Shown in pieces: positions 4,926-61,739 of a stretch of DNA of 64,000 nucleotides. Below the pieces are notes generated by a model that did not search any database, was not told the DNA's origin, and saw nothing but the letters and a program-made list of their open reading frames with translations. A program made the position numbers and the translations under genes. How positions within the stretch are numbered: position 1 is the stretch's first letter; each line of letters begins with the position of its first letter. Source of the stretch: Candidatus Aminicenantota bacterium (GTDB lineage Bacteria; Acidobacteriota; Aminicenantia; S016-38); the NCBI GenBank assembly GCA_027068075.1, contig JAMOUJ010000005.1, positions 372,001 through 436,000 of the forward strand, read 5' to 3'.

Positions 4926-7276
4926 GGGAGGAAGTCCGAGAACTTTTCCACCTTGTCAATGTAGGAGGAGTCCACCTGCCGAATCTCTTCCAGAAGTTTT
5001 TCTGCCTCATTTTTGTTGCCCAGGGCCTCGTAAACCTTGGCCAAATGATATTTTAGGCCCAGGTATTTCTCCGGTGGATATTCCCCCTCCTCCAGGCCTT
5101 TTTTGAAGGTTTCTATGGCTTCTTCGTAAAGGCCCTTTTCAAAAAGGCATATCCCGATGAGTTCCAGTGATTCCAATTTCTTATCGGGGCTTTTTTCCGA
5201 GATCTGAAACTCCGCCAGGGCTTCGTCAAACATTCCCATTTTGAAATAGGCCACGCCTAAATCAAAGTGGGTCTGGTAATCCTCCTCACCTATGGATGCG
5301 CTCATGGTGGAGGAAAGTTGTTTTATCATTTCCCAGTCTTCGCTTTCACGGTCCTTTATTTCCTCTTCCCCTAAGAAGTCCATGGCTTCCAGTTCCTGGG
5401 TTATGGCTTTGGCCAGGTCTACTAAATCTTCCTGGGAAACCTCAGGGGAGGGTTCCTGGGGCGGGAGTTCCTCCTTCTTCTCCTCCTTCATTCCGAATTC
5501 CTCCAGGACCCGGGAGATTTCTTCCTGGGAAGCGCTTTCCTCCGCTTTCTTTTTCTCCGGCAGGGATATCTCCTCCACCAGCCTATCCCATTCCCTGAGG
5601 GTTCCTGTCTCTGTCTCGCCTTCCTCCGGGGCCTCCATGTCCACATTGGTGTCCGATGGTTCCGGTTCCGCCGTCAGGGGAATTTCCAGTTCCATGTCCA
5701 CATTGGTGTCGGCCTGTTCTTTCTGCAGGCGCTCGCTTTCCGCCACCTCAAAGTCCAGGACCGTATCCTGGCCCTCCAGGAGTCTTTCCTCCTCCAGGAG
5801 GAGGTCTTCGTTAATCTCCTGGATTTCCTCTATTTCCTCTTCGGCCTGCTCTTCCATGCCCTTGGCCAGGGAGGAGAGCAGGGCCTCCATCTGGGAAATT
5901 TTCTCCGGATCGTTGGTCTCCGACCGTATGGCTTCTACCAACCTGTGACTTCCTTTCTGGTCCCCCTTTCGGATGTATATTTCAAGAAGTTTGAGTTTGG
6001 CGGGCCAGTAATCCGGGTATTTGAGGAGGATTTTTTCAATTTCGGATTCAGCCTTCATCCACAACTGGAGTTTCATGTAGTTTTCGGCTTCCTCCATGTG
6101 CATTTTCAAAAATTCTTCGGGGCTTTCCTCCTCTTCGCCCACCAGTAGAGCGTATTTTTCCTGGAAGTAAACATTGTCGGGATCAAGGCTCAAAAGTTTT
6201 TTGAGGGTTTTTATTAATTCTTCCTTACGGCCGGTGCTTTCGTATATCTCCGCCAGGGTGGTGAGGACGGCAATTTCGTTGTGCCTCTTCCCGGCTCGTT
6301 CGTATATTTCTGCAATCTTTTCCAGGGTTTTTATGTGGTTGGGATTTGCCTTCAGTATGGGGTTGAAGAGTTCCACCGCCACCTCTTCTTCCCCTTCCTC
6401 CAGCCGTTGTTCGGCCAGGGGGACCAACATTTCGTAGGCCTTGTCAAACTCTCCCTGGAAGATGAAAATATCCGCCAGTTTCTTCTTCAGGTCCTCGTCC
6501 TCTGGATTTTCCAGGAGAAGTTCCTGAAAGAGTTCCTGGGCCTGATCCAGTTTCTGGAAATCCATATAATACTCCGCCACCATTTTCTTTAATGCCGGCG
6601 AAGGACTTTTTTCCAGAAGGGGTAAGGCCAGTTCCTCAAAGAAGTTTGAGCGGGTGGTGGCGCTCAGTCTGCGGGCAAGTTCCAGGGCCTTGAGGCTGTG
6701 GGGCTGAAGAATCAGGGCCCTCTTCAATCTGGCCAGGGCCTTCTCCGTCTCCCCCATTTCTATTTCCTTTTCGGCCAGTTCCAGCAGTAATTCCACTCCC
6801 CTGTCCTTTTCTCCCTGGTTAAGGTAAAGGTTGAGTAGGGCCTCCTTTACTTTGGGGTCATCGGGAAGAAGGTTGGCAAGGCGTTCGTAAACCTCTGTGG
6901 CCTTTTTGTAATTCTGTTTTTTTATCAGGGTTTCTCCCAGGTGAATGAGAAGGTTTTTGGAGTTAACCGTGAGGCCAAGCCTTACATAGAGGTCCGCCAG
7001 GGTAAGTGTGTGATCAGGGTTTTTCGTGTCCAGAAGATAGACCTTTTTGAAGATGGCCAGGGCCTTTTTGAGGAACTCCCTTTCCAGATAGTAATTGCCC
7101 AGGCGGGTAAATATTCTGATGGCCTCCTCCTTCATGCCTGCCCTTTCGTACAGTTCCCCCAGTTTCCTCATCAAATACTCGTCCCGGGGCCTTTTTCTCA
7201 GGGCTCTTTCGTAAATGCGGATGGCCTCCTCTATTTTCCCCTGCCTAACTAATTTTTCTGGAGAAGAATCCCTCAT
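4922..7276 (-). CDS. Large TPR-repeat protein with acidic linker
   Basis: A 784-residue protein with no signal peptide, so probably cytoplasmic. Residues 1 to about 480 are nearly continuous tetratricopeptide repeats (for example AIRIYERALRKRP and ALAIFKKVYLLD). A very acidic, Glu-rich low-complexity linker follows, and a second TPR block closes the C-terminus, opening with EEDYQTHFDLGVAYFKMG. Within the linker the motif DTNVDME occurs twice. TPR arrays are protein-binding scaffolds; no enzyme domain is seen. Its ATG overlaps the rnhB stop by 4 nt and its own stop overlaps the sigma-54 activator start. A physical partnership with that regulator, itself TPR-bearing, is plausible but unproven. 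Confidence 0.8.
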   Translation of the reverse strand: MRDSSPEKLVRQGKIEEAIRIYERALRKRPRDEYLMRKLGELYERAGMKEEAIRIFTRLGNYYLEREFLKKALAIFKKVYLLDTKNPDHTLTLADLYVRLGLTVNSKNLLIHLGETLIKKQNYKKATEVYERLANLLPDDPKVKEALLNLYLNQGEKDRGVELLLELAEKEIEMGETEKALARLKRALILQPHSLKALELARRLSATTRSNFFEELALPLLEKSPSPALKKMVAEYYMDFQKLDQAQELFQELLLENPEDEDLKKKLADIFIFQGEFDKAYEMLVPLAEQRLEEGEEEVAVELFNPILKANPNHIKTLEKIAEIYERAGKRHNEIAVLTTLAEIYESTGRKEELIKTLKKLLSLDPDNVYFQEKYALLVGEEEESPEEFLKMHMEEAENYMKLQLWMKAESEIEKILLKYPDYWPAKLKLLEIYIRKGDQKGSHRLVEAIRSETNDPEKISQMEALLSSLAKGMEEQAEEEIEEIQEINEDLLLEEERLLEGQDTVLDFEVAESERLQKEQADTNVDMELEIPLTAEPEPSDTNVDMEAPEEGETETGTLREWDRLVEEISLPEKKKAEESASQEEISRVLEEFGMKEEKKEELPPQEPSPEVSQEDLVDLAKAITQELEAMDFLGEEEIKDRESEDWEMIKQLSSTMSASIGEEDYQTHFDLGVAYFKMGMFDEALAEFQISEKSPDKKLESLELIGICLFEKGLYEEAIETFKKGLEEGEYPPEKYLGLKYHLAKVYEALGNKNEAEKLLEEIRQVDSSYIDKVEKFSDFLP
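5634..5710. repeat. 20-nt direct repeat inside the TPR gene
   Basis: The same 20 nt occurs at 5634-5653 and 5691-5710, a period of 57 nt (19 codons). It keeps the reading frame and encodes two copies of Asp-Thr-Asn-Val-Asp-Met-Glu in the acidic linker. Exact nucleotide identity suggests recent duplication, or selection on a short linear motif. Confidence 0.9.
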
Positions 7277-7863
7277 TTTCGTCCTGAATTATATTTTAGG
7301 ACAAATTTGGTCCTATGGAAAGGGCTTGCCCCCCATTCCATCAGGCCCCTTCGGTGAGAAAGGGTGCCGTATCCCTTGTTTTGAGCCAGTTGGAAGTGGG
7401 GAAAGGCCGATGACATTCTAACGATAATCCTGTCCCTTATTACCTTGGCCACGATAGACGCTGCTGAAATCTGGGGAACGAGCCTATCCCCGTGGACCAC
7501 GGGCACGAGTTCAACCCCCGGGATTTCCGGAGCGGTGGGACCGTCCACCAGAACCGTGGTCGGTCTGGGGGTTAATCTTTCAACGGCCCGGGCCATGGCC
7601 CTGAGGGTGGCCTGAAGAACATTTTTTTCTTCAATTTCCTCCAGGGTTCCCAGGGAAAAAGACCAGGATAGGGACCTTTCCACTATGGTTCGGAAAAGTA
7701 ATTCCCTTTTCCCCGGGGAAAGTTCCTTGGAATCCCTCAGTCCCTCTATGCCTTCGGGGGGGAGGATTACCGCTGCGGCCACCAGGGGACCGAAGAGGGA
7801 TCCTCTCCCTGCCTCGTCCACCCCCGCAACAAACCCGGATGGGCTACTGATGCCTGGATGCAA
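7273..7863 (-). CDS. rnhB: Ribonuclease HII
   Basis: A 196-residue enzyme that nicks the RNA strand of RNA-DNA hybrids and removes single ribonucleotides from DNA. The N-terminal GVDEAGRGS supplies the catalytic Asp-Glu pair, followed by DSKELS. The block [20 protein letters not shown] and the C-terminal HRRGL and SPFHRTKF stretches match the RnhB family. Length is normal. The start is a TTG at 7863 inside the end of rplS (20-nt overlap), preceded by an AGAGG-like ribosome site; no ATG exists before the conserved block. Cytoplasmic; part of the ribosomal/tRNA-modification operon, an arrangement common in bacteria. Confidence 0.95.
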
Positions 7864-8194
7864 TTTTCCTCTTCATCTTCTTGGGGGTCAGGCCTCTCAG
7901 GAAGAAGAGTTTGGCTCGCCTTACCCTTCCCCTCTTGACCACTTCTATTTTTTCTATTCTGGGAGAGTGGAGGGGAAATATTCTTTCCACCCCTACTCCG
8001 AAGGATATTTTCCTTACGGTGAAGGTTTCTCTGGTTCCTCCTCCCCTTCTGGCGATGACGATTCCCTCAAAGACCTGGATCCTTTCCTTTCCCCCTTCCT
8101 TAATTCTAAGATGAACCCTGACGGTGTCTCCCGGTCTGAACTGGGGTATGTCCTCTTTTAGATGTTTCTTTTCAATCTCCTTGAGTTTCTCCAT
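7844..8194 (-). CDS. rplS: 50S ribosomal protein L19
   Basis: A 116-residue ribosomal protein that sits at the interface between the two subunits. It shows the family signature [20 protein letters not shown], the [12 protein letters not shown] block, then [18 protein letters not shown] and [10 protein letters not shown] near the end. Length is as expected. The ATG lies after a clear AGGAGG site and inside the last codons of trmD (23-nt overlap). The order rpsP, khpA, rimM, trmD, rplS is one of the most conserved bacterial operons. Confidence 0.98.
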
Positions 8195-8870
8195 GATACC
8201 TCCTTATAAGGTCTGGTCTGTTTTTTCGTGTTTTTTCCAGCGCCTTTTTTCTTTTCCATTCCTCTATTTTACCATGATCTCCGCTGAATAAAACCTCGGG
8301 CACGGTTAGGCCCTGAAAATTTCTGGGCCTCGTGTATTGGGGGTATTCCAGAAGATGGGGAGAGGAAAAACTTTCTTCCCGCAGGGATTCCTCCTTACCC
8401 ACCACCCCGGGGATTAGCCTGGAGACGGCATCCATTACGATGAGGGCTGCAGGTTCGCCCCCGGAAAGCACATAGTCTCCCACGGAAATTTCTTCGTCCG
8501 CCAGGTGCTCCGCCACCCTTTCGTCCACCCCCTCGTATCTGCCGCAAATTAAAACGATGTGTTCTTTTTGGGAAAGTTCCCGGGCCTTTTTCTGATGAAA
8601 GAGTTTTCCCGAGGCAGAGAGAAGAACGGTGTGGGAGGAGGGCGTTTTTATTCCACTGAGGGCCCGGTGTATGGGCTCTATTTTCATTATCATTCCGGCC
8701 CCCCCACCGAAGGGTCTGTCGTCCACGCTGCGGTGAAGGTCCCCGGTGAAGTCCCGGAGGTTGAAAATCTCCACCTCCACTGCCCCCGACTCTATGGCCC
8801 TGGAGAGGATTCCGTATTTCAGGGGGGAAGTGAAAAAATCGGGGAAGATGGTCAATACGGTAAATCTCAA
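8172..8870 (-). CDS. trmD: tRNA (guanine37-N1)-methyltransferase
   Basis: A 232-residue SPOUT-class enzyme that methylates G37 next to the anticodon, preventing +1 frameshifting. It contains the start [11 protein letters not shown], the [12 protein letters not shown] block, the knot region [13 protein letters not shown] and the [15 protein letters not shown] motif that binds S-adenosylmethionine. It starts with TTG in a four-base TTGA overlap with the rimM stop, 5-6 nt after a GGAGG site. Length is slightly short of the 240-250 norm at the C-terminus. Confidence 0.97.
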
Positions 8871-9328
8871 ATCTCCTCCAGACCGCGGGGGAGGACGGCC
8901 TCCAGAAATTCTCCCCTGTCCTGGCAGAGACTCAGGGGGATCAAGACCTCCTTCCCTTCAACGGTTTTCACCACAGCAACGAAGTTTCCCGGAATTTCCA
9001 TCACATCAATCACCGTCCCCAAAAGTTTTTCCCCGTGAAAGACCTGCTTGCCCACAGGTCCGGGTGTCTCTTCCTCATCCTCCTCCCCGTAAATCTCGTA
9101 TCCCCTGAGGGCCTCCGCCTCGTCAATGGAGTTTATTTCCCTTAACTTCAGCAGAAGAAATCTTCCGCCCTTTCTAAGTCTTTCAACGGTGAGGGCCCTT
9201 TCCTCTCCTTTCCTTCTAAAAATTAAAACAGACCCCGTACTCCTTTTTTCAAGGGAAAAATTTATGGGGAGAACCCTCAGTTCCCCACTCAAGCCGTGAG
9301 GTCTGAGGACCCTCCCTAATAAGGTCAA
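8867..9328 (-). CDS. rimM: Ribosome maturation factor RimM
   Basis: A 153-residue assembly factor for the 30S head that works with ribosomal protein S19. The N-terminal half is the RimM beta-barrel ([17 protein letters not shown]), the C-terminal half a PRC-type barrel ([19 protein letters not shown], then VLIPL). It is a little shorter than the typical 165-180 residues. The start is TTG in a TTGA overlap with the khpA stop. It sits between khpA and trmD exactly as in other bacteria. Confidence 0.95.
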
Positions 9329-9558
9329 CTTTCCAGAATCTCTAAGACATACCTCTTTTTGTCCCTCATACCCGCAGCGGAAAGTATAGTCCTTATAGCT
9401 TTAGCGGTCCTGCCCTGTTTTCCTATAACCTTGCCGAGATCGTGGGGGTCCACCTTGAGTTCAAGGATGGTGGTCTGCTCCCCTTCCACCTGATGAACCT
9501 GAACCTTGTCCGGATTGTCAACCAAGGCTTTAGCGATCATTTCCACTAAGTCCTTCAC
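9325..9558 (-). CDS. khpA: KH-domain RNA-binding protein KhpA
   Basis: A 77-residue single KH domain of the YlqC/KhpA family. The RNA-binding loop is [15 protein letters not shown], preceded by a short N-terminal helix ([17 protein letters not shown]). The start codon is GTG at 9558, 6 nt after an AGGAGG site. Family members bind RNA and in some bacteria influence cell division or elongation together with KhpB; no khpB is in this window. It lies 11 nt after rpsP in the conserved ribosomal operon. Confidence 0.95.
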
Positions 9559-9569
9559 GGCAACCTCCT

Positions 9570-9824
9570 TTAATTATTTTTTTGAGCGTGCTCTTTGAGC
9601 CTTTTTATAAGGGATTGGACAGTTTTAGTTGCCTGGGCTCCACGCTGCTGCCAGTAATCCAGTTTCTCAAAATTGATTTTGATCTGAGGCTCCCGGGGCA
9701 GAGGGTTATAATACCCTATTTCATCCACGGTAGCGGTCCGAATAGGGCTTCTCCGTTCTACCACCACAATCCTGTAGAAGGGCTGCTTCTTCTTTCCCAT
9801 TCTCATCAACTTTATGCTGAGCAT
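9570..9824 (-). CDS. rpsP: 30S ribosomal protein S16
   Basis: An 84-residue 30S subunit protein. The start [20 protein letters not shown] and the following block [10 protein letters not shown] are diagnostic of S16, as is [13 protein letters not shown]. Its ATG follows an AGGAGGTAACC site. It is 27 nt downstream of ffh and 11 nt upstream of khpA, so it is likely read from the ffh promoter. A TATATT hexamer on the minus strand just before it might give extra transcription. Confidence 0.98.
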
Positions 9825-9851
9825 GGTTACCTCCTGTTTTCTAAATATAGG

Positions 9852-11159
9852 TTAACCCATAAAATTATCCATGTCAATCCCCTGGAGCAATTTGCGGAAG
9901 TTCTTGGACTTGAGCATTTTTTTCATCTGAAAAAATCCCTTCAGGAGTTGGTTCACTTCGGAGACGGGCCTTCCGCTTCCCCGGGCTATTCTTCTTTTCC
10001 TGCTGGCGTCTATTATTTCAGGCCTTTCCCTCTCTCCCCGGGTCATGGAGTTTATTATGGCCTCCATATGGGTGAGTTTTTTATCCTCTATTTTTCCTAC
10101 CCCCGGCATCTTGGGAAGAAAGGCGACGAGTTTAGATAGGCCGCCGAGTTTCTTCAGTAGGCGTATTTGTTTTCTCAGGTCCTCCATGTTAAAGGTCTGT
10201 TTTTTTAGCCTCTCCGCCAGGCGTCGGGCCTCCTTTTCCTCCACCTTTTTTTCCGTTTCTTCTATTAGGGATAAAAGGTCTCCCATACCCAGGATCCTGG
10301 AGGCCATCCTTTCGGGAATGAAGGGCTCCAGGTCCTCCATCTTTTCTCCGGTGCCAATGAATTTTATGGGCTTTCCCGTGGTGTAGGTGATGGAAAGGGC
10401 CGCTCCTCCCCGGGCGTCTCCGTCCATTTTGGTTAGGATCACCGAGTCAAAGCCTACGGCTTCCTGAAAGTTTTTGGCGGAAAGGAGGGCGTCCTGACCG
10501 GTCATGGAATCGGCCACCAGGATTGTTTCTTGGGGTTGAAGAGAGGCCTTTATTTTCTTTAACTCTTCCATAAGGGGTTTATCCACATGAAGCCTTCCCG
10601 CCGTATCCACCAGAACGAAGCGGTATGAGGAATCCTTCAATTTGCTCAATTCCTCAAGGGCACCGTCCAGGGAAGGGGGGACGGGAAGGAAGTCCACCCC
10701 GGCCCGCTGTGCCGTCTTCTCCAATTGTTCCTGGGCGGCGGCCCTTTTCAGGTCCAGGGAAACCACCGCCACCCTGCCCCTTTCCTTCAGGAGATAGGCC
10801 AGTTTCCCTGCGGTGGTGGTCTTTCCAGAGCCCTGCAGGCCCAGGAGAAGGTAGAAATTTACTCCTGACGAGGCCTTCAGGGGCTTGTTCCCTTCCCCAC
10901 CCAGCAGGGTCGTCAACTCCTGGTGAACTATCTTAACCACCGTTTGGTACGGAGTGAGGGATTTTCTGACCTCCTCCGCCAGGAGTTTTTCTCTGAGGGA
11001 GGAAACGAACTCCCTCACTGCCCGGTAGTTGACATCGGCCTCCAGCAGGGCCAGCCTGATTTCTCTCAGGGCCGGTTCCACATTGTGTTCGGAGAGATGG
11101 CCTTCCCCTTTTATTTTTCTAAGAAACCGTTGGAATCCTTCAGATACTCTTTCCAGCAT
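9852..11159 (-). CDS. ffh: Signal recognition particle protein Ffh
   Basis: A 435-residue GTPase that binds 4.5S/SRP RNA and delivers ribosomes making membrane proteins to the FtsY receptor. Order: N-terminal four-helix N domain; G domain with GLQGSGKTTTAGKLAYLL, the VSLDLKRAAAQEQL stretch, DTAGRL and TKMDGDARGGAAL; then the Met-rich M domain with the RNA-binding block RKRRIARGSGR. Length is normal. The ATG has no ribosome site; instead a TAAAAT hexamer ends 6 nt upstream, so the mRNA may begin at the start codon. It heads the long minus-strand operon down to position 1. Confidence 0.98.
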   Translation of the reverse strand: MLERVSEGFQRFLRKIKGEGHLSEHNVEPALREIRLALLEADVNYRAVREFVSSLREKLLAEEVRKSLTPYQTVVKIVHQELTTLLGGEGNKPLKASSGVNFYLLLGLQGSGKTTTAGKLAYLLKERGRVAVVSLDLKRAAAQEQLEKTAQRAGVDFLPVPPSLDGALEELSKLKDSSYRFVLVDTAGRLHVDKPLMEELKKIKASLQPQETILVADSMTGQDALLSAKNFQEAVGFDSVILTKMDGDARGGAALSITYTTGKPIKFIGTGEKMEDLEPFIPERMASRILGMGDLLSLIEETEKKVEEKEARRLAERLKKQTFNMEDLRKQIRLLKKLGGLSKLVAFLPKMPGVGKIEDKKLTHMEAIINSMTRGERERPEIIDASRKRRIARGSGRPVSEVNQLLKGFFQMKKMLKSKNFRKLLQGIDMDNFMG

Positions 11160-60180: not shown

Positions 60181-60209
60181 TTGATGACCGCTAAACGCCG
60201 TCCTATAAT
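60181..60209 (+). promoter_or_regulatory. Promoter of the KaiC-like operon
   Basis: TTGATG (60181-60186) and TATAAT (60204-60209) are 17 nt apart. The leader of about 27 nt carries AGGAGG (60227-60232), 10 nt from the ATG, so this transcript has a conventional leader. Confidence 0.7.
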
Positions 60210-60242
60210 ATAAATAGACAGCATTCAGGAGGCGATCCCGCT

Positions 60243-61100
60243 ATGGGCGAAGAAAGGGAAATTATCAAAGAAAGCATACTGGTGGGTGGCGAAGCCATAG
60301 AAAAGGCCCCAAAGATAAAGGGAATTCCCACGGGGATAGAAGGCCTGGACGAATTGTTTTTCACCAACGAAGTCAAGGATGGGAAGGTGGTGAGGGTTCC
60401 CCTGGGGGGGATTCCCTCCTACTCCATTTTTAACATCACGGGGGTTTCGGATACCGGTAAATCCCTCATGGTGGAACAGTACGCCGTAAAGAGGGCCTCC
60501 GTAGGTGAAAAGGTGATCTTCGTAACCGTGGAGTCCCCGGCTCCCTTCGTCATCGGGGGAATCCAGGCGAGGTCCTACGCCATGGGCATAGACTTTGAAG
60601 AAATTAAGGACAACATAATCCTGATAGATGCGGCTTCCTACTCGGCTCTACGGGACAATCTTCCCACCCTTTTCAACACCCTGGCTTACGCCATAAAGAC
60701 CTACAAGGCCAGGCACACGGTGGTGGATTCCATAACCGGTTTGTTTGAAGCCAGGGAGATGATGGCCCGGACGGTGGTGCGCCAGGTATTCAATTTTCTG
60801 AAGAAATGGTATCAGACCGCCCTTTTCGTATCCCAGAAGAGAAGCGGCCACGAAGAACTTACGGCGGAGGCCGCCGGAGGTTATGCCGTGGGACACATAG
60901 TGGATGGGACTATGGTTCTCGCCAAGGTGCTGGTGGATTCCCAGTACAAGGCTAAACTTTACGGGAAGCCCGTGGGGGAAGTGGTGAGACTTTTCAGGAT
61001 AGACGGATGCCGTCTGGCAGGTCACGATACCAGGACCCGCTTTTTTGAAATAACCCCCGAAGGGCTGGTAAAAATAGGAAAGGCCCTGGGGGAAAAATAG
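60243..61100 (+). CDS. KaiC-like RecA-superfamily ATPase (thermophile AF_0795-type)
   Basis: A 285-residue single KaiC/RadA-like domain. Walker A GVSDTGKS (67-74) has an unusual Asp-Thr pair; the catalytic-region FVTVESPAPFVIGGIQAR and Walker B HTVVDSITGLFE (158-169) follow, then VSQKRSGHEELTAEAAGGYAVGHI split across the arginine-finger area. It lacks the second KaiC domain and any RadA zinc finger. I recall a TIGR03878-type family, AF_0795, found sporadically but only in thermophiles, paired with a TIGR03879 'near KaiC' protein; the next gene fits that partner. Role unknown. Confidence 0.75.
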   Translation: MGEEREIIKESILVGGEAIEKAPKIKGIPTGIEGLDELFFTNEVKDGKVVRVPLGGIPSYSIFNITGVSDTGKSLMVEQYAVKRASVGEKVIFVTVESPAPFVIGGIQARSYAMGIDFEEIKDNIILIDAASYSALRDNLPTLFNTLAYAIKTYKARHTVVDSITGLFEAREMMARTVVRQVFNFLKKWYQTALFVSQKRSGHEELTAEAAGGYAVGHIVDGTMVLAKVLVDSQYKAKLYGKPVGEVVRLFRIDGCRLAGHDTRTRFFEITPEGLVKIGKALGEK

Positions 61101-61115
61101 ACAAGGAGGTGACCC

Positions 61116-61739
61116 ATGGTTATAGAGGTAAGACCCATAGAGGAAGATTACGAAATTCTGGCCACCAGAGTTTTTCTGAAAACCCTGGACATAATCGGGG
61201 GGTTGAAGAAATTGGTGGAATACAGGACCCTCACCTGGCTTCCTTCCCTTGCCAGGTCTGCCATAGTGGTGGTTCTGCGGGAGGAGTTCTTTAAGACCGA
61301 CGAAGAGATCGCCGCAGAGGTGGGCCTCACCAAGCAGACGGTGAGGAACATACTGAGGGCTGACCCTGAGGCCGCCCTTCAGAAACTCCAGAGCATGGAG
61401 GAGTTCACCGATGAGGAGAGGAAAAATGTTCCCGTTCACCTGGCCGGAGGCCTGGCCAAAAGGGCCTACGAACTCATCAAGTATAAGGGAGAAGAGCCTC
61501 AGATCGCCCTGCTTTATACCTCCCAGACCGCCCAGGCCCTGGAGGTTCCGTGGGCCTACGCAGTGCTCAAGTCCCTCAAGGGCACCGATTTTCCCGTTCT
61601 CTCCCCCGAGACCCTGAAGGCCAAACTGGCAGGTATATCCATAAAGGGCAAGCCGGCGGAGGAGGTCGTTTACCTGATCTCGTATCCGGTTTCCAATCCA
61701 GCGGAATTACTTAAGAAAATAAGGGAAGTTTTGGGCTAA
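61116..61739 (+). CDS. HTH protein partner of the KaiC-like ATPase ('near-KaiC' type)
   Basis: A 207-residue protein. Residues about 58-85 form a helix-turn-helix (KTDEEIAAEVGLTKQTVRNI), followed by a helical segment and an alpha/beta C-terminal region. No enzyme motif is seen. Its position, 15 nt after the KaiC-like gene with a shared promoter and an AAGGAGGTG site, and its HTH match the TIGR03879-type partner known from thermophiles. It could be a DNA-binding regulator whose state is set by the ATPase. Confidence 0.7.
   Translation: MVIEVRPIEEDYEILATRVFLKTLDIIGGLKKLVEYRTLTWLPSLARSAIVVVLREEFFKTDEEIAAEVGLTKQTVRNILRADPEAALQKLQSMEEFTDEERKNVPVHLAGGLAKRAYELIKYKGEEPQIALLYTSQTAQALEVPWAYAVLKSLKGTDFPVLSPETLKAKLAGISIKGKPAEEVVYLISYPVSNPAELLKKIREVLG

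Follow-up and report, generated by a model that had tools for sequence, protein, structure and literature searches.

What does a single-domain KaiC-like ATPase do beside a helix-turn-helix (HTH) protein in the genome of a Candidatus Aminicenantota bacterium? The question is raised by two genes in a 64,000-nucleotide stretch of contig JAMOUJ010000005.1 (hereafter the window), which an earlier note, made from the sequence alone, had read as a thermophile-linked pair in which the ATPase may act as a switch or clock-like sensor on the DNA binding of its partner. Our answer, offered tentatively and with slightly under an even chance of being right, is a thermophile-specific module that joins an ATP-driven KaiC-type switch to a DNA-binding output and serves in heat response or chromosome protection. 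The most informative clue, missing from the earlier note, is the association of the pair with the gene for reverse gyrase (rgy) and with genes of chromosome architecture.

The locus in the window

Both open reading frames were found on the forward strand where the earlier note had placed them, the ATPase gene at 60243–61100 (285 aa) and the HTH gene at 61116–61739 (207 aa), separated by 15 bp and each preceded by a Shine-Dalgarno-like AGGAGG (60227–60232 and 61104–61109, respectively). The window's genome holds one copy of each, and the nearest named relative among the best 80 loci, at 94% identity, is a Candidatus Aminicenantes MAG.

A sigma-70-like promoter, TTGATG-17-TATAAT, was located at 60181–60209 (forward strand) by a consensus scan and by conservation, and leaves the pair a leader of about 27 nt. 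The claim that the pair has its own consensus promoter can be upheld in part: the -35 and -10 hexamers and the surroundings of the -10 element are kept in four Aminicenantes despite divergence of the flanks, but the scan itself performed no better than chance (one site found, 1.2 expected). An Rfam scan for a riboswitch or leader RNA of the pair gave no match. A conserved operator near the pair, also envisaged earlier, did not emerge: a comparison of the regions before 77 non-redundant kaiC genes and before 16 lone HTH genes gave no shared dyad above shuffled controls. An anti-phage defence system was considered and rejected, PADLOC assigning 0 families to both proteins; as to viral carriage, a phage search gave no match, and IMG/VR contained no relative of the HTH protein.

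A single-domain KaiC-like ATPase

The two families that the earlier note had named for these proteins proved to be the right ones. Against TIGR03878 (thermo_KaiC_2, the AF_0795 family) the ATPase scores 440.1 bits, with a cut-off of 232.2, and spans model positions 1–258 of 259, while the HTH protein scores 115.8 bits against TIGR03879 (near_KaiC_dom; cut-off 65.1). The ATPase contains one stretch matching the KaiC Pfam model PF06745 (182 bits), and hence a single KaiC domain of RecA fold, with P-loop and Walker B intact. The AlphaFold2 model (pLDDT 91, pTM 0.90) finds its nearest solved fold in PH0284 of Pyrococcus horikoshii (2dr3, E 4e-17), followed by KaiC CI domains.

The Walker A motif, GVSDTGKS (aa 67–74, 60441–60464), is real but had been called unusual, which overstates the case: it is an ordinary P-loop of the GxxxxGK[S/T] pattern and the norm of the family, identical in 48 of 71 homologues. 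Across these 71 sequences, drawn from many phyla, T66, G67, D70, T71, G72 and K73 of the P-loop are invariant, as are D162, S163, T165 and G166 of the Walker B motif TVVDSITGL (aa 159–167, 60717–60743) and E97 in VTVESP (60531–60533), a candidate catalytic glutamate that by motif would be equivalent to the catalytic Glu of KaiC. The same holds for C256, R257, H261 and D262 in a conserved C-terminal motif, RLFRIDGCRLAGHDT (aa 249–263, 60987–61031), and for H203 and H218. All of these features lie on the forward strand, and so does a near-invariant SQKRSGHEELTAEAAGGYAV loop (aa 197–216, 60831–60890; mean column identity 0.95), which reads SQKRSGHEE.xAEAAGGYAV across homologues and is partly disordered in the model (pLDDT < 50 at 201–204 and 209–212). 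This loop appears to sit where the RecA fold has its DNA-binding loop L2, and may contact DNA or a partner; we keep the equivalence purely positional, because the loop sequence had no match in the PDB, RecA and RadA L2 included.

A better match to recombinases than to KaiC, which would have spoken against the original reading, was not obtained, and a recombinase identity was rejected: RadB (27.1 bits, cut-off 172.4) and RadA (20.7 bits, cut-off 259) fall in the range of 21–27 bits, whereas TIGR03878 gives 440 and the KaiC Pfam model 182, and the Rad51 Pfam model reaches 16.3 bits with a cut-off of 22. The idea of a clock-like oscillator fares poorly as well. It can appeal to the KaiC-family fold and to the KaiC CI domains among the top structural matches, but the protein has one ATPase domain, with no second KaiC domain and thus no double-domain kinase architecture, it scores 40.6 bits against TIGR02655 (cut-off 546.25), and no KaiA or KaiB partner was seen in the flanks examined around the pair; we regard such an oscillator as very improbable.

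The HTH partner

The HTH gene shows a trait of its family, being encoded together with a KaiC-like partner, and all 79 homologues of its product match TIGR03879. The core domain of the family covers aa 25–122 (61188–61481, forward strand). Conservation of the protein is high over aa 12–124 and lower in the C-terminal third; partners of 125–127 aa in other thermophiles comprise little more than the core and lack the C-terminal third. According to the AlphaFold2 model (pLDDT 86) the protein is all-helical, and a comparison of its fold with the PDB returned no confident structural match. ParB and sigma region 4, the best PDB matches, were discarded as unusable (E 1.5–5, TM by query about 0.2). 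Weak similarity to sigma-70 regions is present in 28 of the 79 homologues.

The helix-turn-helix itself is assigned to aa 62–84 (61299–61367, forward strand; model helices 62–69 and 73–81), with TVRNILRADP as the predicted recognition helix. This helix is near-invariant across phyla (mean column identity 0.88 at aa 73–84 in the 79 homologues). Such constancy is not usual in a local regulator and would suit a structural component or part of a machine as well. For this reason, and because no shared operator was found, we do not give classical transcriptional regulation a higher weight.

Co-occurrence and distribution of the pair

The pair is present in other genomes, and its sporadic, thermophile-linked spread, as asserted in the earlier note, is borne out. 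Among 198 Acidobacteriota genomes the ATPase occurs in five and the HTH gene in the same five (0/193 of the others), and among 298 Campylobacterota genomes the ATPase occurs in 11, with the HTH gene adjacent in every case (11/11); two Campylobacterota that carry rgy and lack the ATPase lack the HTH gene too. For the best 80 loci, a sample biased to Aquificota as well as to close relatives and containing MAGs that may be mis-binned or incomplete, the HTH gene scores above cut-off in 46 of the 50 ATPase-positive genomes, including Aquificaceae in which the two genes are unlinked. Thermodesulfobacteriota carry the ATPase in 16/297 genomes. For the archaeal half of both families we relied on control genomes and the literature.

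Gene order is tight where the two genes are linked, their ends often overlapping or lying 0–28 bp apart, and in the cultured thermophile Thermomicrobium roseum they overlap. The description of the genes as side by side is accurate for the window and for roughly half of the loci compared; in Aquificaceae they are apart yet co-present. The Acidobacteriota ATPases outside the window's genome are 60–87% identical to that of the window, and in the ATPase tree the five fall in three separate places, namely the window clade, G047 with WOR-3, and G011/G039 beside Hydrothermota/WOR-3. This branching suggests that Acidobacteriota acquired the pair on more than one occasion, each time with both genes.

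Several lineages show arrangements of their own. At locus L031 (8199–9053, genome G047) a gene for a ClpP-like SDH-type membrane protease (PF01972) separates the HTH gene from the ATPase gene, its ends overlapping with theirs, and the protease is possibly a third member of the module in that lineage. The campylobacterotal genome G505 has, next to a normal pair, a second, fast-evolving TIGR03878 copy (L191) with no adjacent HTH gene. Where Aquificaceae have relocated the HTH partner, a small XRE-type HTH gene (about 75–90 aa) follows the ATPase gene at 10 loci (L045, L048, L053, L054, L057, L064, L067, L068, L076 and L079). ATPases from MAGs titled Bacteroidales and Deltaproteobacteria (loci L109 and L096) branch inside a Nitratiruptor-type clade, pointing to either transfer or mis-binning.

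The TIGR03878 family is restricted to thermophiles in that the best 80 loci come largely from vent and hot-spring lineages, thermophily of the MAGs being judged from lineage, the IVYWREL index and rgy, so that growth temperatures are indirect. Predicted IVYWREL temperatures in Acidobacteriota are higher for ATPase-positive genomes (64–93) than for ATPase-negative ones (28–73), although the ranges overlap and the samples are small. Heat alone could therefore explain the pattern: the pair might be unrelated to DNA topology, serving for instance metabolic or stress signalling, and merely travel together with rgy in hot habitats. The surroundings of the pair in the window, an MFS transporter gene upstream on the opposite strand and a UDP-glucose dehydrogenase gene downstream, are in line with that explanation.

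Links to reverse gyrase and to further chromosome genes

Reverse gyrase has been described as the one protein that every hyperthermophile has and mesophiles lack (PMC6878951). We detected rgy (E <= 1e-150) in 44 of the 50 ATPase-positive genomes behind the best 80 loci, and in Campylobacterota it is present in 11/11 ATPase-positive genomes compared with 2/287 ATPase-negative ones (Fisher p 2e-18, uncorrected for kinship). In 16 of the best 80 loci the pair directly adjoins rgy, which either follows the HTH gene or is divergent from the ATPase gene (L061); these loci belong to Hydrogenothermaceae/Persephonella and to Nitratiruptor-type bacteria, and their start and stop codons often overlap. 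The 11 Campylobacterota ATPases form two separate clades, in one of which (G251, G253, G287 and G333) rgy lies elsewhere in the genome, so that simple physical hitch-hiking with rgy cannot account for all of the association. Other chromosome genes recur as neighbours: a gene for SMC follows the HTH gene in four Thermodesulfobacteria loci, and the lone HTH genes of Aquificaceae follow either rpsA and an HU-type gene or an SF1 helicase gene. The order rpsA, HU-like gene, HTH gene is conserved in the Aquificaceae loci L152, L155, L160–L162 and L170–L173.

Within the 198 Acidobacteriota, full-length rgy was found in the window's genome only (1267 bits), unlinked to the pair; in the four other pair-bearing genomes rgy was not detected, and since these relatives have the ATPase, rgy is not obligatory for the pair. 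Selection of both in hot habitats, with no functional tie to topology, would accommodate these four genomes, but it has difficulty with the repeated direct adjacency and overlap with rgy in two phyla, with the divergent arrangement at L061, and with the independent neighbours SMC and HU. We consider it unlikely.

The rgy gene of the window's genome is at 7028–10435 on the reverse strand of contig C9 (locus L179; 1135 aa), and a TATAAT ends only 6 nt before the start codon, a distance at which the transcript may be leaderless. The promoters of rgy and kaiC in this genome have only one 7-mer in common, nothing beyond chance. Two other Aminicenantes MAGs (those behind L034 and L035) also carry rgy.

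The link between the pair and rgy is correlational. Nowhere in the literature searched are KaiC-like proteins and reverse gyrase connected by gene neighbourhood, or the accessions TIGR03878 and TIGR03879 discussed, and the quantitative link to rgy and other chromosome genes looks new. Co-inheritance with rgy, translational coupling in several lineages and unlinked persistence elsewhere make the pair a concrete candidate, open to testing, as partner or regulator of rgy, a gene whose induction in Nautilia profundicola exceeds 100-fold at 65 C (PMC2628731). A stronger version, to which we give rather less credence than to the general proposal, is that the pair is a companion of reverse gyrase in function, not recognised as such so far: a chromosome-protection module of two mobile genes, gained by bacteria on becoming (hyper)thermophilic, that would either act directly on DNA or influence how topology genes are expressed.

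Proposed function

In the general proposal, the KaiC-like ATPase, probably as a RecA-type ring, would bind and hydrolyse ATP and thereby control the engagement of DNA by its HTH partner, and the pair would help to keep or adjust the state of the chromosome in hot conditions, within one programme that also includes reverse gyrase. In the version that we favour, the ATPase would be a switch whose output is DNA binding by the HTH protein, and the pair would regulate chromosome-topology genes in response to heat or energy. In the literature searched we found no experiment on proteins of the TIGR03878/TIGR03879 pair; we infer that the two form a complex, bind DNA and behave as a switch, and likewise what their targets would be.

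The same neighbours could also be read more directly, with the ATPase itself acting on DNA and the HTH protein serving as a loader onto double-stranded DNA in a maintenance machine that has no transcriptional role. The company of rgy, SMC, HU, SF1 helicase and a DciA-like gene would suit such a machine, as would the near-invariance of both the HTH and the disordered ATPase loop at the L2 position, and the weak similarity of the HTH protein to ParB; moreover, the ATPase has a profile match (E 1e-12) to Sso2452 (2w0m), which binds ssDNA (PMC8708640). Yet the L2-like loop has no counterpart in the sequences of RecA or RadA, the RadA and RadB models stay far under cut-off, and the ParB similarity is mostly below significance. 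In Pyrococcus furiosus, the predicted transcriptional regulator PF1932 and the KaiC domain-containing PF1931 are strongly heat-induced, carry Phr motifs and are putative Phr targets (PMC10746257). That a predicted regulator and a KaiC protein behave there as a heat-shock target is compatible with either view. PF1931 probably belongs to the PH0284/UPF0273 group (TIGR03877), and with PF1932 would make up the sister pair, TIGR03877 plus TIGR03879. On balance, a direct maintenance machine seems to us possible but doubtful.

Should the pair prove to be such a partner or regulator of reverse gyrase, two families whose present annotations read no more than 'KaiC domain-containing protein' and 'probable regulatory domain' would acquire a function, and KaiC-like ATPases would have a role outside clocks and motility.

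Comparison with known systems

The two window proteins score above both curated cut-offs, and we found nothing that would exclude them from TIGR03878 and TIGR03879; they are thus members of known, functionally uncharacterised families. The label of an undescribed system is therefore apt for the function alone, as both families and their pairing are already named in NCBIfam. The nearest sister group, TIGR03877 (thermo_KaiC_1; PH0284/UPF0273), likewise consists of single-domain KaiC-like ATPases and contains the closest solved fold, but the window ATPase scores 61 bits against its cut-off of 307 and is about 25% identical to PH0284. TIGR03877 pairs with a second TIGR03879 family. Cyanobacterial KaiC is likewise a RecA-fold ATPase, and its P-loop and Walker B agree with those of the window ATPase, but it has two domains where the window ATPase has one, and the latter falls outside the circadian family TIGR02655.

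Sso2452, a Rad55-like RadA paralogue and anti-recombinase that binds ssDNA (PMC8708640), is also a single-domain KaiC-like ATPase of a thermophile and shows the profile match given above, but its identity to the window ATPase is low and the literature searched reports no HTH partner for it. CirA–CsmR of Haloferax volcanii, in which the KaiC-like protein CirA works with a transcription factor (PMC13286277), offers a precedent for control of such a factor by a KaiC-like protein; unlike the thermophile pair, that system belongs to a mesophilic halophile and has its role in motility and cell shape.
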